Below, piece after piece: positions 2,235 to 12,171 of a DNA stretch of 12,171 bases. The stretch is from positions 1 through 12,171 of the forward strand of contig CAINWC010000253.1 of the NCBI GenBank assembly GCA_903854305.1, in the 5' to 3' direction. The stretch's first letter is position 1. Each line of letters opens with the position of its first letter. Origin of the DNA: an uncultured Pseudomonadota bacterium. Its GTDB lineage: Bacteria > Pseudomonadota > Gammaproteobacteria > Burkholderiales > Methylophilaceae. Below the pieces are notes generated by a model. It saw nothing but the letters and a program-made list of their open reading frames with translations, did not search any database and was not told where the DNA came from. The translations under genes and the position numbers were made by a program.

Positions 2235-3718
<1,484 letters not shown>

Positions 3719-3770
3719 GAATAAAGTCTTAGCGATGGTTGTTTTAAGCCACCGTTTTAATTAAAGACGT

Positions 3771-3776
3771 ATTTTA
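3771..3776 (-). promoter_or_regulatory. Candidate -10 box for the reductase-dapE-prmB operon
   Basis: On the minus strand the hexamer TAAAAT (5 of 6 matches to TATAAT) lies about 53 nt upstream of the reductase start. The hexamer 17 nt further upstream, TCTGCA, is a poor -35 (3 of 6 matches). The rest of the 168-bp gap holds only a weak inverted repeat (ATGCTTA at 3804-3810, TAAGCAT at 3828-3834). I see no convincing terminator for the GGDEF-EAL gene here. Confidence 0.3.
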
Positions 3777-3886
3777 ACAGTAATCCAGTAAAGTGCAGAA
3801 ATTATGCTTAAGTTGTTGAATTAAATGTAAGCATTGGCAATATAGCGTGAGTGCTAATTAAGCCGTTATTGGATATTTACCTGCTG

Positions 3887-5614
3887 CTAATCAACAATCT
3901 TTTTAAGTTCTTTAATAAAAGTTTGACCTGTTTCTTCAAAATGTAAAGTCAGGTTCTTTAGCAAACCGATCAGTCTTTCTTCGGGCAGTGGGCGTGAAAT
4001 CAAGAAACCTTGCATTTGGTCACAGCCAAGGTCTGTCAGCATTTTACGTTGCCCTTCAGTTTCAACGCCTTCAGCCACCACGTTTAATTCAAGCACGTGT
4101 GCAAGTTCAATAATCGCTTGCGTAATCCCGCGCGTTTTGTGATTAGTATCAATATCGCTAATAAAGCTTGGGTCTAATTTAAGTTCGCTTACCTTTAGAT
4201 TTTTTAGATAAGCTAAATTTGATGGATGGATGCCGAAGTCATCAATTGCTATTCTAATATCAGCGTTATTAAAGCGTTCTAGTAAGCTGTTAAATAAAGA
4301 TTCATTTCTAATCGCTGAATATTCAGAAATTTCAAATATAACGCTTGATGATGGCAGCTCAAAGCGCTGTAGCATGGAGGTAATGTCGCTGACCAAGTTA
4401 GCACTTCTTAGTTGTTGGTACGATAAGTTGATCGAAATGCTAAAAGGGGTTTCTAAAAATTTTAAATGGTGTAATGTCCTGCAGCTTTCTTCTATCACCC
4501 AGGCACTGATTGTGCTACTTAAGCCAAACCGTTCAGCGACGTGCATAAAGTCTGCTGGATGCAACAGACCTCTTACAGGATGTTGCCAGCGCAGTAGCGC
4601 CTCTGCGCCCACAGGTTCTCTGGTGATGCTATCTATTTTAATTTGAAAATGGAGTTTAAGCTCGTCGTTGGCAAGGGCGTTTTTTAGGTCATACTGTGTT
4701 TCCAGTAATTGATCTGAAGCTAAGGCAATTTCAGCATCAAAGAAGCGGAATTGATTTTTACCATCTTTTTTAGCCCGGTACATCGCAGTATCTGCTGCGC
4801 TAATCAGTTGACCAATGCTGCCGTCTCTCGGGAACATCGCCACGCCAATAGAGGCTGTTATGGCAAGCTCAGAGTGATTGGGAATCGTAATATCTCGAAT
4901 CGAGCTGACCATGCGCTCAATAATGATGATGCAATCTTCATCGGTTTTAACTTCTTCAATGATGGCAATAAACTCATCACCGCCAATGCGTGCAACTTCA
5001 TCGCAACCACGTACTGCGGCAACAAGTTTTTTTGCCACTTTTTGCAACACGTCATCGCCAGCTTGATGCCCAAGTACGTCATTGACTTGTTTAAAGTTAT
5101 CAATGTCCACAAAGGCTACAGCCAAGCTTGTTCCTGATCGTTCACTTCTTCTGCAGGCGGCTTCAAGGTGCTGCAATAAGGCGCGGCGGTTTGGCAGATG
5201 GGTCAGTGTATCTACCATGGCCATTTGAGATAATTTTTCTTTTGAATGGTTTACGGGAAGTTTTTTATTTCTTAAAAACAAATCAAGCATAGCCACTAAT
5301 AGCGTAGCTAAAATTAAACTGATGACGCATAAAGCCGTGGTGAGGAAAATTAAGGTGGGTTTATCGTGAATCGTGGCAACGCAAATGGCATGAATGAACC
5401 ATGCGCCGAGTGCTGTAATGACGATGCCGCTGGTTAACCACAGCTTAGCTTCAGTCGGTTTGCTAAACCATAATCTGGTCGTTAGTCGAAACGTAGTAAT
5501 CGAGGTGCCAAAAGCAACCATGAGCGCAATTGCGATTAACCAAAGATTATTGTTAATAATAAAACTTAGCATTATTTTTCTAATAAGTCGTGAATAGTCT
5601 TCACTTATTAGCAA
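3887..5614 (-). CDS. Membrane GGDEF-EAL cyclic-di-GMP turnover protein
   Basis: A 575-residue bifunctional-type protein. Three hydrophobic segments lie at about 23-42, 59-80 and 88-113. The GGDEF domain (about 130-295) has intact GGDEF at 211-215 and an allosteric I-site RxxD at 202-205, so diguanylate cyclase activity with product inhibition is plausible. The EAL domain (about 305-555) keeps E338 in EAL, N396, E428, D458-D459, K479, E515 and Q535, the usual metal-binding and catalytic set. Loop 6 is unusual: DDFGIHPSN instead of the common DDFGTGYSS, so phosphodiesterase activity or its control may be altered. The membrane part resembles half of an MHYT sensor (W72 and H75 in GAWFIHAI). The start is TTG at 5614, preceded by GGGGA; an ATG at 5572 would give 561 residues and still keep all membrane segments. 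Confidence 0.92.
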   Translation of the reverse strand: MLISEDYSRLIRKIMLSFIINNNLWLIAIALMVAFGTSITTFRLTTRLWFSKPTEAKLWLTSGIVITALGAWFIHAICVATIHDKPTLIFLTTALCVISLILATLLVAMLDLFLRNKKLPVNHSKEKLSQMAMVDTLTHLPNRRALLQHLEAACRRSERSGTSLAVAFVDIDNFKQVNDVLGHQAGDDVLQKVAKKLVAAVRGCDEVARIGGDEFIAIIEEVKTDEDCIIIIERMVSSIRDITIPNHSELAITASIGVAMFPRDGSIGQLISAADTAMYRAKKDGKNQFRFFDAEIALASDQLLETQYDLKNALANDELKLHFQIKIDSITREPVGAEALLRWQHPVRGLLHPADFMHVAERFGLSSTISAWVIEESCRTLHHLKFLETPFSISINLSYQQLRSANLVSDITSMLQRFELPSSSVIFEISEYSAIRNESLFNSLLERFNNADIRIAIDDFGIHPSNLAYLKNLKVSELKLDPSFISDIDTNHKTRGITQAIIELAHVLELNVVAEGVETEGQRKMLTDLGCDQMQGFLISRPLPEERLIGLLKNLTLHFEETGQTFIKELKKIVD

Positions 5615-5878: not shown

Positions 5879-6706
5879 TTAAATGCCGCGTAATAATTCG
5901 TTAATACCCACTTTACCTAGTGTTTTTTCATCTACTTTTTTAACAATCACTGCGCAATAAAGGCTGTAAGTGCCATCTTTAGACGGTAAGTTGCCAGCAA
6001 CCACTACTGAACCAGCAGGAACACGACCATAAGTCACGCTACCTGTTTCACGGTCGTAAATTTTAGTTGATTGACCGATATACACGCCCATTGAAATCAC
6101 GCAGTTGTCTTCAACAATAACGCCTTCAACCACTTCAGAACGTGCACCGATAAAGCAATTATCACCAATGATCGTTGGGCCGGCTTGCACAGGTTCTAAC
6201 ACGCCACCGATGCCTACGCCACCAGATAAGTGTACATTTTTACCGATTTGCGCACATGAACCAACAGTCGCCCATGCATCGACCATCGTACCTTCACCTA
6301 CATACGCACCAATGTTGACGAATGAAGGTAAAAGAACCGCATTTTTGCCGATGAATGAACCGCGACGTACCATGGCACCAGGCACCACGCGGAAGCCGCC
6401 TGATTTAAAGTCTTCTTCAGTGTAATCAGCAAATTTTGCTGGTACTTTATCAAAATACTGCGTGCAGCCACCGTCTAACAATACATTGTCATCTAAGCGG
6501 AATGAAAGTAATACCGCCTTTTTTAGCCATTGATGGGTTTCCCAATTTTGAGTGTTGCCAATACGTGAAGCAACGCGTAATGTACCTGCATCAAGATCAG
6601 CAATGATGCTGGCTATAGCTTCTTTTAATTCTGGGCTGGCATTCGCTGGGTTAATGTTTGCGCGGTCTTCAAATGCGGCTTCAATGATATTTTGTAGTTG
6701 ACTCAT
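5879..6706 (-). CDS. dapD: DapD, tetrahydrodipicolinate N-succinyltransferase
   Basis: DapD uses succinyl-CoA to succinylate tetrahydrodipicolinate, the step that commits diaminopimelate synthesis to the succinylase branch which DapE later completes. The 275 residues match the usual length (E. coli 274). The N-terminal helical region (1-105) contains [19 protein letters not shown]. It is followed by a left-handed beta-helix of hexapeptide repeats (about 110-215: [30 protein letters not shown] and so on). The acidic residues D143 (MVDAW) and E191 (ARSEVVEG) match the catalytic pair of the family. The ATG at 6706 gives the expected N-terminus [12 protein letters not shown]; no strong ribosome binding site precedes it. 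Only 35 nt separate the start from the kup terminator, so its own promoter must overlap that hairpin or it depends on read-through. Confidence 0.97.
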
Positions 6707-6740
6707 GATGATGTAGATAATATTCCAAAAATATACAGCG

Positions 6741-6778
6741 TAAAAAAGGGTAAAAAAGCAAAGACGCTATTTTACCCT
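6741..6778 (-). terminator. Intrinsic terminator downstream of kup
   Basis: On the minus strand AGGGTAAAATAGC (6778-6766) pairs with GCTTTTTTACCCT (6759-6747), giving a 13-bp stem with one T-T mismatch and a 6-nt loop, followed by a run of T. It lies 78 nt past the kup stop codon and 35 nt before the dapD start codon. Confidence 0.75.
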
Positions 6779-6842
6779 AATCTTATAAAAATCCAGAACC
6801 TAGGCTAAATTACGTTTTGCAAAATATTAAAATTTGTCAAAT

Positions 6843-6856
6843 ATACAGCGCTGTAT
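6843..6856. repeat. 14-bp perfect palindrome touching the kup stop codon
   Basis: ATACAGCGCTGTAT (6843-6856) has no spacer and reaches the last base of the kup stop codon. Its left part, extended to the 12-mer AAATATACAGCG (6839-6850), is repeated exactly at 6729-6740, just left of the kup terminator. The two copies are 110 nt apart. The function is unknown. Confidence 0.45.
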
Positions 6857-8739
6857 TAAAAAGACACCTGTGAACCAAGTTCAACTACACGATTCGGCGG
6901 TAGTTTAAATTGGTTGGTAATCGTCTCTGCGCTTCTAAATAAGCCGATAAAGATTTTTTTACGCCAGAACGCCATTTCTGTTTTTTCGCTGGAGATGAGG
7001 ATTTCCTTACCTACAAAAAATGACGTATCCATTGCATCTAAAATCAAGCCTTGTGGCGCACATAGTAATAAGTCTCGAGGTAAATCTGGCTCATCTTTAA
7101 AGCCATAATTTACCGTTACTTTATAAAACTCATGTGGTAACACTTGCACTTCAACACGTTCTTCAGTGGAACTGTGCGGGTAGTCTAAAAACTTAACCGT
7201 GAGTATCACTACTTTTTCGTGCAACACTTTGTTGTGTTTTAGGTTGTGTAGCATGGCGTGCGGAACACCATCCAAATTCGGTGTCATGAACAAGGCTGTG
7301 CCGTGTACGCGCGTGGGCGGATGTGCGCCAATCGCTTCAATAAATGGATCTAGCGCCATTGCATCATTTTTAAGGTGTTGATAAAGCAGCGTGCGCCCTG
7401 TTTTCCACGTGAGCATCAAGGTGAAAATCACAATGCCAATCGCTAAAGGTACCCATCCGCCATCAGGTATTTTTAATACGTTGGCACTAAAGAATGACAC
7501 ATCGACAATCAAAAACATCGTCACCAATGCGCCTGTGCGTACCTTGCTCCAACCCCAAATGTTATGGAATACGATGCCGGCTAATAAAGTGGTAATGACC
7601 ATGTCGCCAGTCACTGCAATGCCATACGCAGCAGCCAAGTTGCCAGATGATTTAAATGACAGCACTAATATCATCACGCCTAGCATCAAGCCCCAGTTAA
7701 CACGCGGCATATAGATTTGCCCTTCCTGGCTTTCAGAAGTATGTTCTACGTGCATGCGTGGTAAAAAACCGAGTTGCAGGGCTTGGCGTGAAACTGAAAA
7801 TGCACCGGTAATCACGGCTTGCGAGGCGATGACCGCTGCAAGTGTCGCTAAGATAATGAGTGGGAATAGCATCCATTCCGGAGCAAGTAGATAGAACGGG
7901 TTCTTAACGGCTTCAGGATTTTTTAAAATGAGCGCGCCTTGACCAAAGTAGTTAAAGATCAATGCGGGTAATACAAAACCAAACCAAGCGAGGCGAATCG
8001 GAAAACGCCCAAAATGTCCCATGTCGGCATATAAGGCTTCAGCGCCAGTTACCGCAAGCACCACCGCACCCAATGCCACAAAGGCTATCCACGGACTGAC
8101 AACAAAGAAATGAAAAGCATACATGGGGTTGAGTGCATGCAGAATTGTTGGATTTTGCAGAATACTTTGTATGCCCAATACGCCTAAAGTACCAAACCAA
8201 AGCAACATGATGGGACCAAAAAAAGCACCGACTAATGCGGTGCCTTTGCTTTGTGCCCAAAATAGAACAACGAGTACGATCAATGTGACTGGAATGATCA
8301 GCGGGTGCAACATCGGCGCCGCTAACTCTAAGCCTTCTACCGCAGAAAGCACTGAAATGGCGGGGGTAATCATGCCGTCAGCATAAAACATACAGGCACC
8401 TAAAATACCTAGCAGCATAATGGTATGTTGTTTTTTGACGTTGTCTGCCGCATTGTGGCTGGCCAACGCCAGCAAGGCCATAATGCCGCCTTCACCACGG
8501 TTATCTGCCCGCATAATAAACGCCACATATTTAACTGATACCACCATGATCAGCGCCCACACTATCAGCGATAATATGCCAAACATATTGGCTTCGGTCA
8601 ACGGTACAGGATGTGTACCTGCGGAGAATACTTCTTTGATAGTGTATAAAGGGCTTGTACCAATATCACCAAAAACTACGCCTAATGCGGCTAAAGTAAG
8701 TGCGGAGAGTTTTGTTTTACTGCCAGTAGGAGATGACAT
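6856..8739 (-). CDS. kup: Kup-family low-affinity potassium uptake protein
   Basis: Kup proteins bring potassium into the cell by K+/H+ symport across the inner membrane. With the ATG at 8739 the protein has 627 residues (E. coli Kup 622). Family signatures are GVVFGDIGTSPLYT (20-33, first membrane segment), DNRGEGGIMALLAL (about 79-92) and YADMGHFGRFP (237-247). About twelve hydrophobic segments fill the first 450 residues, followed by a soluble C-terminal domain of about 175 residues. I chose 8739 because the family normally starts roughly 20 residues before the GDIGTSPLYT motif. The frame extends upstream to an ATG at 8772 and a TTG at 8778, which would add 11 or 13 residues. None has a good ribosome binding site. 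The gene is transcribed divergently from the cytochrome cluster and ends at the terminator at 6741-6778. Confidence 0.96.
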   Translation of the reverse strand: MSSPTGSKTKLSALTLAALGVVFGDIGTSPLYTIKEVFSAGTHPVPLTEANMFGILSLIVWALIMVVSVKYVAFIMRADNRGEGGIMALLALASHNAADNVKKQHTIMLLGILGACMFYADGMITPAISVLSAVEGLELAAPMLHPLIIPVTLIVLVVLFWAQSKGTALVGAFFGPIMLLWFGTLGVLGIQSILQNPTILHALNPMYAFHFFVVSPWIAFVALGAVVLAVTGAEALYADMGHFGRFPIRLAWFGFVLPALIFNYFGQGALILKNPEAVKNPFYLLAPEWMLFPLIILATLAAVIASQAVITGAFSVSRQALQLGFLPRMHVEHTSESQEGQIYMPRVNWGLMLGVMILVLSFKSSGNLAAAYGIAVTGDMVITTLLAGIVFHNIWGWSKVRTGALVTMFLIVDVSFFSANVLKIPDGGWVPLAIGIVIFTLMLTWKTGRTLLYQHLKNDAMALDPFIEAIGAHPPTRVHGTALFMTPNLDGVPHAMLHNLKHNKVLHEKVVILTVKFLDYPHSSTEERVEVQVLPHEFYKVTVNYGFKDEPDLPRDLLLCAPQGLILDAMDTSFFVGKEILISSEKTEMAFWRKKIFIGLFRSAETITNQFKLPPNRVVELGSQVSF

Positions 8740-8972
8740 TAAAATGACTGTTAAATTTGATAAGAACGCCATTATCAATCAACTTAATATACTTAACCAA
8801 TATATTTTTTTAATAAGAGATCTTCCTGCTGGTTTTTTAAGTCTAAAAATTTACCCATTTCGTCATTTCCACGTAGATGGAAATCTATTGTAAATAGAGA
8901 CTTTTGCACCAAGCTAAATTGACTGCAATTTAAGTTGAAATTCCCAATTATCGTAGCCCAGAGTAACCTCTC

Positions 8973-8989
8973 TTGTCACAAAGTGACAA
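8973..8989. promoter_or_regulatory. Perfect dyad TTGTCAC-3-GTGACAA, candidate operator
   Basis: TTGTCAC (8973-8979) and GTGACAA (8983-8989) are exact inverted repeats around AAA. Short arms and a 3-nt spacer suit a dimeric DNA-binding protein better than a terminator, and no T run follows. It does not match the CRP (TGTGA-N6-TCACA) or FNR consensus. The site is about 234 nt upstream of the kup start and 259 nt upstream of the cytochrome start, so it could serve either gene. Confidence 0.4.
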
Positions 8990-9131
8990 TTCACCTTAAT
9001 GGTAGGCATGTCTGTGAGTTGAACTGTGTTAACAAATTTAGTTCGCGCCAGTTAAGGTTAAATATAATCTGTTGCATAAATACTACAAACTCACATTAAA
9101 TTACTTAAAATCAGGACTAGCCAACCAAAAA

Positions 9132-9145
9132 TTGACATATATCAA
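9132..9145 (+). promoter_or_regulatory. FNR/Anr-type binding site upstream of the cytochrome cluster
   Basis: TTGACATATATCAA matches the FNR/Anr consensus TTGAT-N4-ATCAA at 9 of 10 defined positions (C instead of T at position 5). Its centre, 9138.5, lies 41.5 bp upstream of the start point near 9180 predicted by the -10-like hexamer at 9168-9173. That is the classic spacing for FNR-activated class II promoters. It is flanked by the inverted hexamers GCCAAC (9120-9125) and GTTGGC (9146-9151). The match suggests activation under low oxygen by an FNR, Anr or Dnr-type protein. Which one cannot be decided, and no such regulator is in the window. The first six bases also read as a perfect -35 (TTGACA), but no -10 lies at the right distance. 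Confidence 0.6.
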
Positions 9146-9167
9146 GTTGGCATTCTCTGCATAAGCC

Positions 9168-9173
9168 CATTAT
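9168..9173 (+). promoter_or_regulatory. Candidate -10 box of the cytochrome cluster promoter
   Basis: CATTAT (4 of 6 matches to TATAAT) predicts transcription starting near 9180 and a 5' leader of about 68 nt. There is no -35 of its own, as expected if an activator at 9132-9145 replaces it. The call rests mostly on its distance to that box. Confidence 0.35.
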
Positions 9174-9237
9174 TTGGCAAGGGTCTTATTGGCTGGCATG
9201 TTAAAATTAAGCTAGCAATCATCAATCAACCGTAAAT

Positions 9238-9247: not shown

Positions 9248-9631
9248 ATGAAAGTTAAAATTCGTGTTAATGCATTAATCAGTGTTGTTGCAACAGTTTT
9301 TGGGTTGTCTTTATCAGCCAGTGCGCTTGCTGTTGATGCTGATGCAGCATTGTCACTGGCACGTCAAAATGGTTGTTTAAAATGCCATGCAGTAGACAAG
9401 CATAAAGATGGTCCGGCTTATCGCGATGTTGCTGCAAAGTACAAGGATAAAGATCACGCCGAAACCGTTAAAAAGTTGATTAACCACATTACCTCAGGTG
9501 AAAAAGCTAAGTTCCCGGATGGTCATGAAGAAGAGCATAAGATCATTAAAGTGAAAGACGTCGCGCAACAAACTAACTTAATTGAGTGGGTGCTATCACT
9601 TCCAGGTGGTGTGTGGCCAGAAAAAGATTAA
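9248..9631 (+). CDS. Periplasmic class I monoheme cytochrome c, MtoD-like role
   Basis: A 127-residue precursor. Residues 1-28 form a typical Sec signal peptide (basic MKVKIRVN, hydrophobic core, cleavage near SALA), followed by about 99 mature residues. The single heme site is CLKCH (43-47), in the usual ARxxGCxxCH setting of class I cytochromes, with a C-terminal helix NLIEWVLSLPGG. The mature protein contains no methionine, so the usual Met axial ligand is impossible; H93 or H97 in DGHEEEHK, where the Met loop normally lies, are the likely replacements. The protein is rich in lysine and glutamate. Next to a decaheme/porin pair it probably shuttles electrons between that conduit and inner-membrane partners, as proposed for MtoD of Sideroxydans. 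Orthology to MtoD is not shown. It is the first gene of the cluster, 67 nt before the decaheme gene. Confidence 0.9.
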   Translation: MKVKIRVNALISVVATVFGLSLSASALAVDADAALSLARQNGCLKCHAVDKHKDGPAYRDVAAKYKDKDHAETVKKLINHITSGEKAKFPDGHEEEHKIIKVKDVAQQTNLIEWVLSLPGGVWPEKD

Positions 9632-9639
9632 GCACTAAA

Positions 9640-9665
9640 TTAAGCGGACAACACAGTCCGCTTAA
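9640..9665 (+). terminator. Intercistronic stem-loop, weak terminator or processing site
   Basis: TTAAGCGGAC (9640-9649) and GTCCGCTTAA (9656-9665) form a perfect 10-bp stem with a 6-nt loop, 8 nt after the monoheme cytochrome stop. It is followed by AAGTTTTACC, a short and displaced T run, so termination is probably partial. It may let the small cytochrome be made in excess over the decaheme protein, either by attenuation or by protecting the 3' end of a processed mRNA. Confidence 0.6.
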
Positions 9666-9698
9666 AAGTTTTACCAAGTTAAATAGGGGAGTGAAAAA

Positions 9699-10736
9699 AT
9701 GAAATTAATAAGAAAAATGGTATCTTTAGGAGTTCTAATTTGTGGATTATGTTCGGTTTCATGGACATTGGCCGCAGATCTCCCCGACCTAGGCGAACCA
9801 ACGCAATCGCAGGCCAAAGCTAGCGCTAGCATAAGCGCAGCAGAATCACTTAAAAAAGACGCAGTTTGTACCAAGTGTCACGATTCAAGTGAAATGAAGC
9901 CTGTACTCTCAATTTATCAAACTAAGCATGGTGTTAAAGGTGATCCACGCACACCTAGCTGCCAATCTTGTCATGGCGCGAGTGAAAACCATGTTAAGAA
10001 TGCCGACGGGAAAGCTACCCGCAATAAGCCTGATGTGGTTTTTGGAACTAAGCGCGGAAGCTCTGGTGCTTATCCACCAAGTGAGGCAAAAGTACAAAGT
10101 ACAGCCTGTTTATCCTGTCATGGTAAGGATGTAAATCGTACGCATTGGGAAGGTGGTGCTCACCAAACAAATGATATGACTTGTGCTTCATGCCATGAGG
10201 TCCACACTGCCCACGATAAAGTGCGTGACAAACAAACTCAACCTGAAGTCTGCTTTGTTTGCCATAAAGAGCAAAGAGCACAAAGCAAAAAAATCTCTCA
10301 CCATGCTATCGGTGAAGGTAAAGTAGTTTGTTCTGACTGCCACAACCCTCACGGTTCTGCTGGCCCAAAAATGCTGAAGAAAAACACAGTTACTGAAACT
10401 TGCTACACCTGCCATGCAGAAAAACGTGGTCCATTTCTATGGGAACACCAGCCTGTGACAGAAGACTGTACAAATTGTCATACGCCACATGGTTCAAACA
10501 TAACGCCGCTTCTAAAATCAAGAGCTCCTTTCTTATGTGATGATTGTCATGACGGCCCACATAACAGTCAAGCACCCGTAGCCGGCAATGCAGGTGGTAT
10601 CCAAGGCGGCCTAACAAATGCAACTACAAGTAAACTGGCTAACCCGAGTACGAGCTATGCTGGTCGTGCCTGTCTTAACTGTCATGTCATGGTGCATGGA
10701 TCAAATTCACCATCCGGCGCATTTTTGCATCGCTAA
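9699..10736 (+). CDS. mtrA: Decaheme c-type cytochrome, DmsE/MtrA/MtoA/PioA family
   Basis: A 345-residue precursor with a signal peptide (MKLIRKMVSLGVLICG..., cleavage near TLAA, residue 26) and exactly ten CxxCH heme sites starting at C57, C88, C137, C162, C185, C211, C235, C257, C280 and C325. Thirteen further histidines after the first heme site are enough for bis-His ligation of all ten hemes. Length and heme number match MtrA of Shewanella (333 residues) and MtoA of Sideroxydans. The longer PioA type has an extra N-terminal part that is absent here. In characterised systems this protein threads through an MtrB-type barrel and carries electrons across the outer membrane. The ATG at 9699 is preceded by GGGGAG (9686-9691). 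The barrel gene follows 21 nt downstream. Direction of electron flow is not determined by the sequence. Confidence 0.95.
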   Translation: MKLIRKMVSLGVLICGLCSVSWTLAADLPDLGEPTQSQAKASASISAAESLKKDAVCTKCHDSSEMKPVLSIYQTKHGVKGDPRTPSCQSCHGASENHVKNADGKATRNKPDVVFGTKRGSSGAYPPSEAKVQSTACLSCHGKDVNRTHWEGGAHQTNDMTCASCHEVHTAHDKVRDKQTQPEVCFVCHKEQRAQSKKISHHAIGEGKVVCSDCHNPHGSAGPKMLKKNTVTETCYTCHAEKRGPFLWEHQPVTEDCTNCHTPHGSNITPLLKSRAPFLCDDCHDGPHNSQAPVAGNAGGIQGGLTNATTSKLANPSTSYAGRACLNCHVMVHGSNSPSGAFLHR

Positions 10737-10757
10737 TTTGAGACAAGGGAATTTATC

Positions 10758-12171
10758 ATGAAAACAGATAATAAATATTTTGCGCTCAGTAAACTAACTC
10801 TGATTGTGCAAGGCGCTTTGATTGCAATGACCGCCACCCCATTAGCCACTTTTGCTGCTGACGATGAAGCTGCAGCCTTGGTACAACCGAGCAATTCTGT
10901 AGAAGTGGGTGTAAAAGTTATGCCTAAAGATTCAGCTAAGTATGGCGAATATAACGGTGTAGACCATTCTGGTGCTTATCTAATGGGCAATTTCAACTTA
11001 CGTGGAGGAGATGCATACAAAGCTTACGAAGGCGGTAACGGTGTAAATCGCTGGGAAGCCTACGGAATTGATCTTGGCACGACCTCTCGTGAACTTGGTG
11101 GCTCAGTGAGTAATCAAGGGCAATGGAATATAGGGATTAAATACGATGAGTTACGTCATAACATCTCCGATACTTATCAAACGCCCCTGCAAGGAGGAAT
11201 GGGTGGAAATAACTTCACCATGCCTGCAGCATTTGGCATTATTAATACAGGCTACGTTGCACCTGGTACATCGAACATTGGTACTGGTGCACAAGCGCTG
11301 ACCGACACGCAGAAGAGCCTTTTCCACAAAGTAGATGTATATACCGATCGTAAAAATTCTAGTTTTACTGCGGGTTATACCTTTGACGAACAATGGGGAA
11401 TTAAATTTGATTACAATCATTTAAATCAAACAGGCGCTAAGCTGATGAGTGCAAGTACTGATGCAGCTAGAGCGGCATCAGGACCATTAAGTAGTACGTG
11501 GGGCGTTGAAAAAATCCTCATGTTAATGAATCCGACCGATTACACTACAGACACTTTCAATTTGGCTCTAAATTGGAAAGGTGATAAGAGTTTTCTAACA
11601 GTTGGTTATTATGGTTCATTATTCCGCGACAACAATAACGCACTAACCTTCCCGAACATCTACGCAGCTGGAGGTACGCTAGGAACGACTGGCAATCAAG
11701 GCAGAACAGGAACGGCCTTTCCTATAAACACCCTGAGCACCATGCCTAGTAACGATTTTCACCAAATCAATCTAACTGGTGGCTCTACACTAACACCCAG
11801 CACAAAACTCGCAGGTGGATTCTCATACGGCCGCAATACGCAGGATGAAAGTTATCCATTTGCCATGCTACAGGTCGTTCCAGGCGTGTCTGGAGCGACA
11901 GCATTGCCAATGGGTGGAGGTAGGCCGCCACAGGCTTCCCTTGATGGCCTAGTAGAAACCACGCATGCTGACTTAAAGCTGACAAACCAAACTAGCAAGG
12001 ACTTAACATTAAGCGCTGGTTTTAAATATAACGAACGTGACAATCAAACTGCGTCTAATGTCTATAACTTTATCGACCTTGGTGGAGTAAATAGAACCGC
12101 AGTTAATACTCCGATGAGTAACAGAAAAACTCAATTTGAAGTAGCCGGTGACTACCGCATTGACCCGAGCA
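10758..12171 (+). CDS. mtrB: MtrB/MtoB/PioB-family outer-membrane beta-barrel, 3' partial
   Basis: Open from the ATG at 10758 to the window end without a stop (471 complete codons); family members are about 650-850 residues, so the C-terminal barrel is missing. AAGGGA (10745-10750) is a good ribosome binding site. Residues 1-33 form a signal peptide ending TFA. The mature start has family features: KYGEYNGVDHSGAYLMGNFNL followed by LRGGDAY and RWEAYGIDLGTTSREL. After that come alternating amphipathic strands rich in aromatic residues, glycine and asparagine (for example GDKSFLTVGYYGSLF, TKLAGGFSYG), as in a porin. There is no cysteine in the visible part, whereas Shewanella MtrB has an N-terminal CxxC; this is nearer to the MtoB/PioB side. 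Its job is to form the sheath that holds the decaheme cytochrome in the outer membrane. Confidence 0.93.
   Translation, partial: MKTDNKYFALSKLTLIVQGALIAMTATPLATFAADDEAAALVQPSNSVEVGVKVMPKDSAKYGEYNGVDHSGAYLMGNFNLRGGDAYKAYEGGNGVNRWEAYGIDLGTTSRELGGSVSNQGQWNIGIKYDELRHNISDTYQTPLQGGMGGNNFTMPAAFGIINTGYVAPGTSNIGTGAQALTDTQKSLFHKVDVYTDRKNSSFTAGYTFDEQWGIKFDYNHLNQTGAKLMSASTDAARAASGPLSSTWGVEKILMLMNPTDYTTDTFNLALNWKGDKSFLTVGYYGSLFRDNNNALTFPNIYAAGGTLGTTGNQGRTGTAFPINTLSTMPSNDFHQINLTGGSTLTPSTKLAGGFSYGRNTQDESYPFAMLQVVPGVSGATALPMGGGRPPQASLDGLVETTHADLKLTNQTSKDLTLSAGFKYNERDNQTASNVYNFIDLGGVNRTAVNTPMSNRKTQFEVAGDYRIDPS

Follow-up and report, generated by a model that had tools for sequence, protein, structure and literature searches.

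A candidate Mto electron-uptake cluster, mtoD-mtoA-mtoB-imoA, in a Methylotenera genome

The window analyzed here, a stretch of 12,171 nucleotides from an uncultured member of the Methylophilaceae, is an entire contig (CAINWC010000253.1, here C253) of the draft genome GCA_903854305.1 (here G000), which comprises 2.52 Mb in 445 contigs at 90.4% completeness and 2.7% contamination. An earlier note on this sequence had described three consecutive plus-strand genes, for a monoheme cytochrome c, a ten-heme cytochrome and an outer-membrane barrel. All three open reading frames (ORFs) are present, and they begin a cluster with the order mtoD-mtoA-mtoB-imoA (Table 1). Because the window is a whole contig, mtoB is cut at position 12171; its remainder and imoA lie on contig C53. 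The MtoA protein scores 280 bits against TIGR03508 (cut-off 192) and 219 bits against the structure 6r2q_A, which is MtrA (PMC10654088). The window part of MtoB reaches 287 bits against TIGR03509 (cut-off 240) and 271 bits against PF11854, and stops at position 369 of the profile. The C53 part, which by itself stays below the TIGR03509 cut-off at 185 bits, covers positions 386-662, and a comparison by eye with the intact MtoB of the relative G026 leaves a short unsequenced stretch of about ten residues between the halves. A pattern scan for CXXCH returned 384 sites against 92 in the reversed control and serves as a pointer only; the cluster is not a chance find, because the curated families stand in the expected order.

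Table 1. Features of the mto cluster, its borders and the ribulose-1,5-bisphosphate carboxylase/oxygenase (RuBisCO) genes in G000; positions without a contig are those of the window. MITE, miniature inverted-repeat transposable element.
Feature	Position	Strand	Description
kup	6856..8778	-	left host flank; adjoins xseA in relatives G006, G184 and G180
MITE-like repeat arm	8897..8954	+	58 bases, outward-facing, left of cluster
mtoD	9248..9631	+	monoheme cytochrome c; signal-peptide-like start; C-terminal tail PGG.WPE
hairpin	9640..9665	+	in the mtoD-mtoA gap
mtoA	9699..10736	+	decaheme MtrA/MtoA-family cytochrome, ten CXXCH
mtoB	10758..12171	+	N-terminal 471 residues of MtrB/PioB-family barrel; in frame at contig end
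mtoB remainder	G000:C53, L007 7192-8196	-	same family, C-terminal part
imoA	G000:C53, L007 6573-7166	-	197-aa tetraheme NapC/NirT (ImoA/CymA-type) cytochrome
inverted partner arm	G000:C53:6473-6514		right of imoA
form II RuBisCO	L131 (G000:C7) 2336-3718		divergent from phosphoribulokinase (pair 2336-4878)

The gene imoA starts 25 bases after mtoB and is followed by a strong hairpin with TTTT and then by xseA on the opposite strand. Its product matches PF03264 with 259 bits, contains four CXXCH motifs and is 82% identical to ImoA of a Sideroxydans contig. The CXXCHxM at heme I, His74, Lys101, His167 and His186 carry the same numbers as in ImoA of Sideroxydans lithotrophicus ES-1 (PMC13390432). 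Since the mtoD-mtoA and mtoA-mtoB gaps measure 67 and 21 bases, the cluster is probably a single transcript. The earlier note had suggested looking beyond position 12171 for a surface cytochrome or a quinol dehydrogenase: the ImoA/CymA-type quinone cytochrome indeed follows mtoB, and an MtrC/OmcA protein (TIGR03507) was not found in the 90% complete G000, where the top score is 20 bits against a cut-off of 209. With no MtrC-type protein above cut-off, a composite MtrCAB system is ruled out. No small gene of PioC type was seen from mtoD to xseA among ORFs of at least 80 aa in the window and at least 90 aa on C53, a survey made without a profile for high-potential iron-sulfur proteins.

The MtoD protein has one CXXCH, and its best solved relative is 4xxl (124 bits, E 2.5e-35), with 65 of 104 aligned residues identical (62%). 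This structure, annotated as 'Cytochrome c class I', is MtoD of S. lithotrophicus. The start codon ATG at 9248 is preferred over the mechanical start at 9236 because GGAG lies a few bases upstream of it. The HEEEH region is retained. MtoD proteins are 79-93% identical within the family, against 53-63% to the five outsiders compared, from other freshwater Betaproteobacteria, and the tail PGG.WPE occurs in 6/6 family rows and 0/30 other rows of the alignment. Our samples comprise 187 genomes of the family Methylophilaceae and 52 of the host genus. Among the matches listed, MtoD exceeds 200 bits in six of the 187 family genomes, each of which also has MtoA above cut-off. G026, the seventh such genome, has a contig that starts inside mtoA, and its best MtoD match elsewhere reaches 54 bits. 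The next-best genome, G174, has 92 bits, and the remaining matches listed are class I cytochromes at about 35-46%. An orphan MtoD with other functions was rejected on this confinement to MtoA-positive genomes. A c-type cytochrome named Novimethylophilus sp. (P0298), from a further methylotroph genus, is 94% identical to the window MtoD over 71% of the query.

In G000, G177, G180 and G181 a hairpin forms between mtoD and mtoA (-17 to -19 kcal/mol for the whole gap); it comes in two types that differ in their letters. In G179 the best fold is another one (-15.9), and the stem of the others fits if a mismatch is allowed. No such hairpin was found in G088 or in five outsiders whose gap is clean (Rhodoferax, Polaromonas, Sideroxydans, Ferrovum and Polynucleobacter), where folds range from -2.8 to -7.1; the Gallionella gap is not clean and contains another cytochrome gene. 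Judging by its position, the hairpin could set the ratio of MtoD to MtoAB.

Mto genes are rare in the family. MtoA exceeds the TIGR03508 cut-off in seven of the 187 family genomes, five of them in the genus, and MtrB (TIGR03509) exceeds its cut-off in 3 of 120 sampled family genomes. G174 stays below the TIGR03508 cut-off at 170 bits. Its locus L111 (G174:C156, 7495-9549) has another arrangement, with an MtoD-like protein (43%), an ImoA-like protein (62%) and a ten-heme protein 29% like MtoA, and the genome carries a form I-sized RuBisCO. Outside the family the order mtoD-mtoA-mtoB-imoA is common, and it is shared on many contigs with clusters of Gallionella, Rhodoferax, Polaromonas, Ferrovum and Polynucleobacter. 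In a set of 51 loci (L041-L091), 48 have MtoA, with an MtoD-like gene in 38 and an ImoA-like gene in 28 of these; many of the contigs break off early, and the 48 include three family contigs already counted. Two loci of a metagenome-assembled genome (MAG) labelled Desulfovibrionaceae (L061 and L071, WRJY01) carry MtoA, MtoB and an MtoD-like gene, and either the label or the biology is questionable; L061 also has an ImoA-like gene, with imoA placed between mtoA and mtoB. A Rhodocyclaceae MAG (L064, 10001-17358) has ten-heme genes on both sides of imoA, possibly a duplicated conduit.

G000 also encodes a form II RuBisCO next to phosphoribulokinase. The enzyme scores 897 bits against NF010002, and its best solved relative, 5c2c, is a Gallionella-type enzyme (PMC9417184). 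The DNA flanking the pair has full or partial matches in 51 of the 52 genus genomes, and the same neighborhood occurs in G168 and G177. Of the 187 family genomes 38 have RuBisCO of some form, as do 12 of the 52 in the genus; it occurs in 4/7 MtoA-positive genomes against 34/180 others (p 0.03). Form II accounts for the same 4/7 against 7/180 (Fisher p 2e-4, or 8e-4 if the fragmentary G023, G039, G157 and G162 are counted as form II). These statistics are uncorrected for kinship, G177 and G181 being close relatives. Forms were called from scores; an identity check on five of the other ten form II genomes gave 82-91%, and 25 form I loci lie at 28-32%. G000 contains two truncated genes of the methanol dehydrogenase family and part of a third, alcohol-dehydrogenase-like gene. 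All three score below the family cut-off, as contig ends truncate every one of them. The one methanol dehydrogenase compared has XoxF 6oc5 as its best match, and both read WDYDG at the site where XoxF has Asp.

The earlier note had proposed a conduit of the Mtr/Mto type, which is borne out, and had offered two functions for it, reduction of an outside acceptor and electron uptake. We give a probability of about 0.6 to an intact mtoD-mtoA-mtoB-imoA cluster acquired by Methylotenera and acting as an Mto route of electron uptake. MtoA within the MtoB pore would accept electrons from Fe(II), Fe(II) minerals or reduced humics. Two exits would follow: MtoD, a high-potential carrier, would pass electrons on to a terminal oxidase, and the low-potential tetraheme ImoA would feed the quinone pool whenever the cell requires reducing power. 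Form II RuBisCO and phosphoribulokinase might then allow a methanol user to save one-carbon (C1) units or grow mixotrophically at the oxic-anoxic boundary. The sequence itself shows the genes and their order, the host, the chromosomal site, and the RuBisCO, phosphoribulokinase and methanol dehydrogenase genes of the same genome; a single transcript, assembly of the complex, direction of flow, electron donor and link to CO2 fixation are what we infer. Uptake appears to fit better than an outside acceptor because of MtoD, the absence of a detected MtrC and the form II RuBisCO. For ES-1, potentials are given as about +100 to -400 mV for MtoA, +155 mV for MtoD, 0 to -400 mV for ImoA and +100 mV for ubiquinol (PMC13390432). 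The potential of MtoD lies above those of MtoA and ubiquinol, so electrons would fall from Fe(II) through MtoA and MtoD to the oxidase. Outward flow from cytochromes at the level of methanol oxidation would be uphill. ImoA at 0 to -400 mV could reduce the quinone pool or act in reverse, and the authors of the ES-1 study leave both directions open (PMC13390432). In Sideroxydans CL21 the ability to oxidize iron tracks mtoD expression best (PMC12442390), and in ES-1 MtoA was detected on magnetite only (PMC12016527).

Several observations weigh against uptake. In CL21 mtoA is expressed with or without iron oxidation (PMC12442390); in ES-1 MtoD bound neither MtoA nor ImoA, its partner being PmcA (PMC13390432); and MtrA-type conduits can operate in both directions (PMC10734462). 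No RuBisCO match was found in three of the seven MtoA-positive genomes (G088, G179 and G180), and within the genus the association with RuBisCO of any form, 3/5 against 9/47, is not significant (p 0.07). Absences in G000 itself are weak evidence, because the genome is 90% complete and divided into 445 contigs. The gene pmcA does not follow imoA, the next gene being xseA; we do not take pmcA as defining, as mto operons of Thiomonas consist of mtoABD only (PMC5566968).

The best surviving alternative is an outward conduit, in which a cell short of oxygen would discharge electrons from methanol or formate via ImoA and MtoAB to Fe(III), humics or partner cells. For Methylotenera and Methylobacter, He et al. 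(2019) propose extracellular acceptors with other conduits, which in Methylotenera are other porin-cytochrome clusters and Cyc2 (PMC6344600). A Methylobacter enrichment with a porin-cytochrome cluster produced methane-dependent anode current (PMC13322032), and ImoA can oxidize quinol in Shewanella and substitute for CymA there (PMC13390432). We nevertheless consider export doubtful: the TIGR03507 search of G000 found no MtrC, MtoD at +155 mV and ubiquinol at +100 mV would be poor donors for Fe(III) minerals, and an export route does not predict the enrichment of form II RuBisCO with Mto in the family. It is quite unlikely that the conduit serves detoxification or housekeeping, in which Fe(II) oxidation or redox balancing would be held outside the cell and yield no energy, or that it serves another acceptor in the manner of DmsE. 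TIGR03508 does bear a DmsE family name, and MtoA is not above cut-off in 180 of the 187 family genomes; against this, MtoD and ImoA indicate Mto, and the neighbors of the cluster are kup and xseA, with no DmsAB-type reductase gene beside it. DmsEF identity was ruled out on the same absence of adjacent reductase genes. An assembly or binning error that brought in a contig of another bacterium is very improbable, since the 445 contigs of the draft and the division of mtoB between two of them are outweighed by the DapD-Kup stretch (5879-9235) on the same contig as the cluster, which matches 39 of 41 sampled same-genus genomes (G000 included), by XseA, DsbB, CysM and others beside imoA on C53, ordered as in G006, G117 and G184, and by MtoA above cut-off in six more family genomes.

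The host is a Methylotenera. Minus-strand housekeeping genes precede the cluster; they include GGDEF-EAL and methyltransferase genes (profile matches), kup (protein homologues), and genes for PrmB, DapE, an ArsC-like protein and DapD. Among 120 Kup homologues listed, four are named Methylotenera sp. (87-89% identity), three Methylophilaceae bacterium and two Pseudomonadota, and the closest matches (94-96%) carry no genus in their names. The assignment of the conduit to the Methylophilaceae in the earlier note thus stands and narrows to the genus: the genus-named Kup matches are Methylotenera, and both flanks of the cluster match that genus, which rules out a contaminant origin. Methylotenera is not a known iron oxidizer.

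We compared the kup stretch in eight relatives. The direct adjacency of xseA and kup (Table 1) lies on one contig in G006, and in G117 the two genes are 3 kb apart. In the other four the available stretch does not contain both genes; past kup it extends for 12 kb in G090, 9.6 kb in G161, 2.7 kb in G177 and 0.2 kb in G179, the last two being cut by a contig end. The neighborhood is not universal among the eight. The site is empty in G184, whose Kup and XseA are 95% and 89% identical to those of G000; in G000 the mto cluster stands between kup and xseA, each flank gene on its own contig. Past xseA follow DsbB, CysM, a 597-aa protein, a YdbL-like and an exonuclease-like protein, in the same order in G006, G117 and G184. 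As flank genes and gene order are shared with relatives, the cluster is, judged by its surroundings, an insertion into or a loss from a Methylotenera chromosome and not a contaminant.

The earlier note had seen no mobile element, a statement that needs revision: the cluster splits the kup-xseA pair of three relatives between inverted MITE-like arms, and its sites in the family vary. The two arms form outward-facing terminal inverted repeats around the cluster, with 35 bp at 89% likeness. They are the only matches in G000 to a 126-base query at E 0.01, in a fragmented assembly that may lack further repeats. No target-site duplication was found by eye, as the bases beside the two outer ends differ and the right one is degenerate. 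G179 and G184 carry dispersed copies (L197-L206) of an element of about 172 bases that has an inner hairpin and the inverted ends GAGACCTTTGCAC. Two of the ten copies examined are shorter; by eye, a perfect 5-base duplication borders four of the ten and a four-of-five duplication two more. This dispersed element looks like a MITE. Of 23 loci compared with the full element, the window and L007 alone match; the family's remaining mto contigs, some of them short, are without it. The mto clusters of the family occupy several different sites. They lie beside a coproporphyrinogen-oxidase-like gene and an M18-type peptidase in G177/G181, kinase-like and copper-ATPase-like genes in G180, ccm-like genes in G026, and hemerythrin-like and rhodanese-like genes in G088; in G179 the contig ends near the cluster.

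Quick trees of the four proteins differ in how far they follow the host. The earlier note had called for MtoA and MtoB to be placed against Mto, Pio and Mtr references; both group with Gallionella, Sideroxydans, Polaromonas and similar bacteria, in trees built without Pio (PioA included) and Shewanella Mtr references. MtoD forms one family clade of six rows in a 36-row tree (SH-like approximate likelihood ratio test, SH-aLRT, 98), a short tree with long-branch warnings. The ImoA tree does not display one clade, and forcing one costs nothing (approximately unbiased, AU, test p 0.665, 30 rows, G088 partial; all AU values share the limits of the model). A single family clade is rejected for MtoA (AU p 0.0195, 48 rows, three label changes) and strongly rejected for MtoB (AU p 4e-46, 46 rows, four label changes, with the G180 row 20% filled). 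In an 88-row MtoA tree with 40 unlabelled metagenome proteins, six of the seven family rows fall into a 36-row set (SH-aLRT 98) and G088 stands outside. The family label is no more clustered there than in shuffles (83/500 as low), a result of little weight given that no taxon is attached to the metagenome rows. Branch support of 94 to 100 places MtoB of G179 with Polynucleobacter, G088 and G180 with Ferrovaceae and Sideroxydans, G000 and G026 with Gallionella, and G177/G181 apart. The exchange is clearest in one pair: between G000 and G179 identity is 94% for Kup, 88% for MtoD, 85% for ImoA, 83% for MtoA and 45% for MtoB (C part); fast change of exposed loops could contribute to the divergence of MtoB. 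The outer-membrane pore thus seems to have been exchanged in the family and the periplasmic carrier kept. A swap of the whole mtoAB in G177/G181 is unclear, with MtoA inside the larger clade of the 88-row tree and MtoB only about 30% alike. Two loci (L107, 9083-12112, and L110, 5094-8096) encode MtoB of 1001-1010 residues, about 200 above the usual and about 30% identical to others; the one of L107 is still above the TIGR03509 cut-off.

More tentatively, the Mto of Methylophilaceae may be a mobile module whose periplasmic carrier is the part tuned to the host: MtoD, and probably ImoA, would stay and co-evolve with the respiratory chain of the methylotroph, and MtoAB, above all MtoB, would be swapped among freshwater bacteria. 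It might have been gained with a Gallionella-type form II RuBisCO, yielding iron-using mixotrophs, and in one instance have come as a MITE-bounded unit.

We judge the cluster to belong to a known kind, in an unusual host and with a testable evolutionary pattern. The ES-1 cluster (slit_2494-2498) shares mtoD, mtoA, mtoB and imoA with the present one and includes pmcA, which the present cluster lacks (PMC13390432). The present cluster differs further in its methylotroph host, family-specific MtoD tail, mtoD-mtoA hairpin and other chromosomal site with MITE-like arms. MtrA and MtrB of Shewanella MtrCAB are homologous; here no MtrC was found, and MtoD and an ImoA-type quinone cytochrome replace the Shewanella partners. 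Prior art is partial, as MtrB/PioB and RuBisCO are already known from lake Methylotenera: a 2025 lake study reports RuBisCO and phosphoribulokinase in all LW2 genomes and MtrB/PioB in some LW1-2 genomes, in a section with one sentence on MtrB/PioB that leaves MtoA, MtoD, ImoA, site and mobility unnamed (PMC11978286). The sections of PMC8805035 and PMC10654088 concerned contain no Methylophilaceae Mto. In the literature outside subscription papers, preprints and supplements we found no description of an mtoDAB-imoA cluster from Methylophilaceae, and none of where it is inserted or of an exchange of the pore.

Methylotenera are common in lakes and are thought to use C1 compounds leaked by methanotrophs (PMC11978286). 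A complete Mto route with CO2 fixation in one genome would connect iron cycling at the oxic-anoxic boundary with the food chain based on methane. The clade pattern is also relevant to the question of whether MtoD matters: ES-1 biochemistry gives it no partnership with MtoA or ImoA, yet in Methylophilaceae it is the part of the cluster that follows the host most clearly and, among the matches listed, occurs only in MtoA-positive genomes. PCC3 and Cyc2-like genes are described from M. versatilis 301 (PMC5566968). Elsewhere in G000, L119 (C1, 3-1181) and L120 (C333, 2301-5382) encode CXXCH-repeat multiheme proteins and a 756-aa protein without a Pfam or NCBIfam match beside ccm-like genes, possibly a further, PCC3-like porin-cytochrome cluster.

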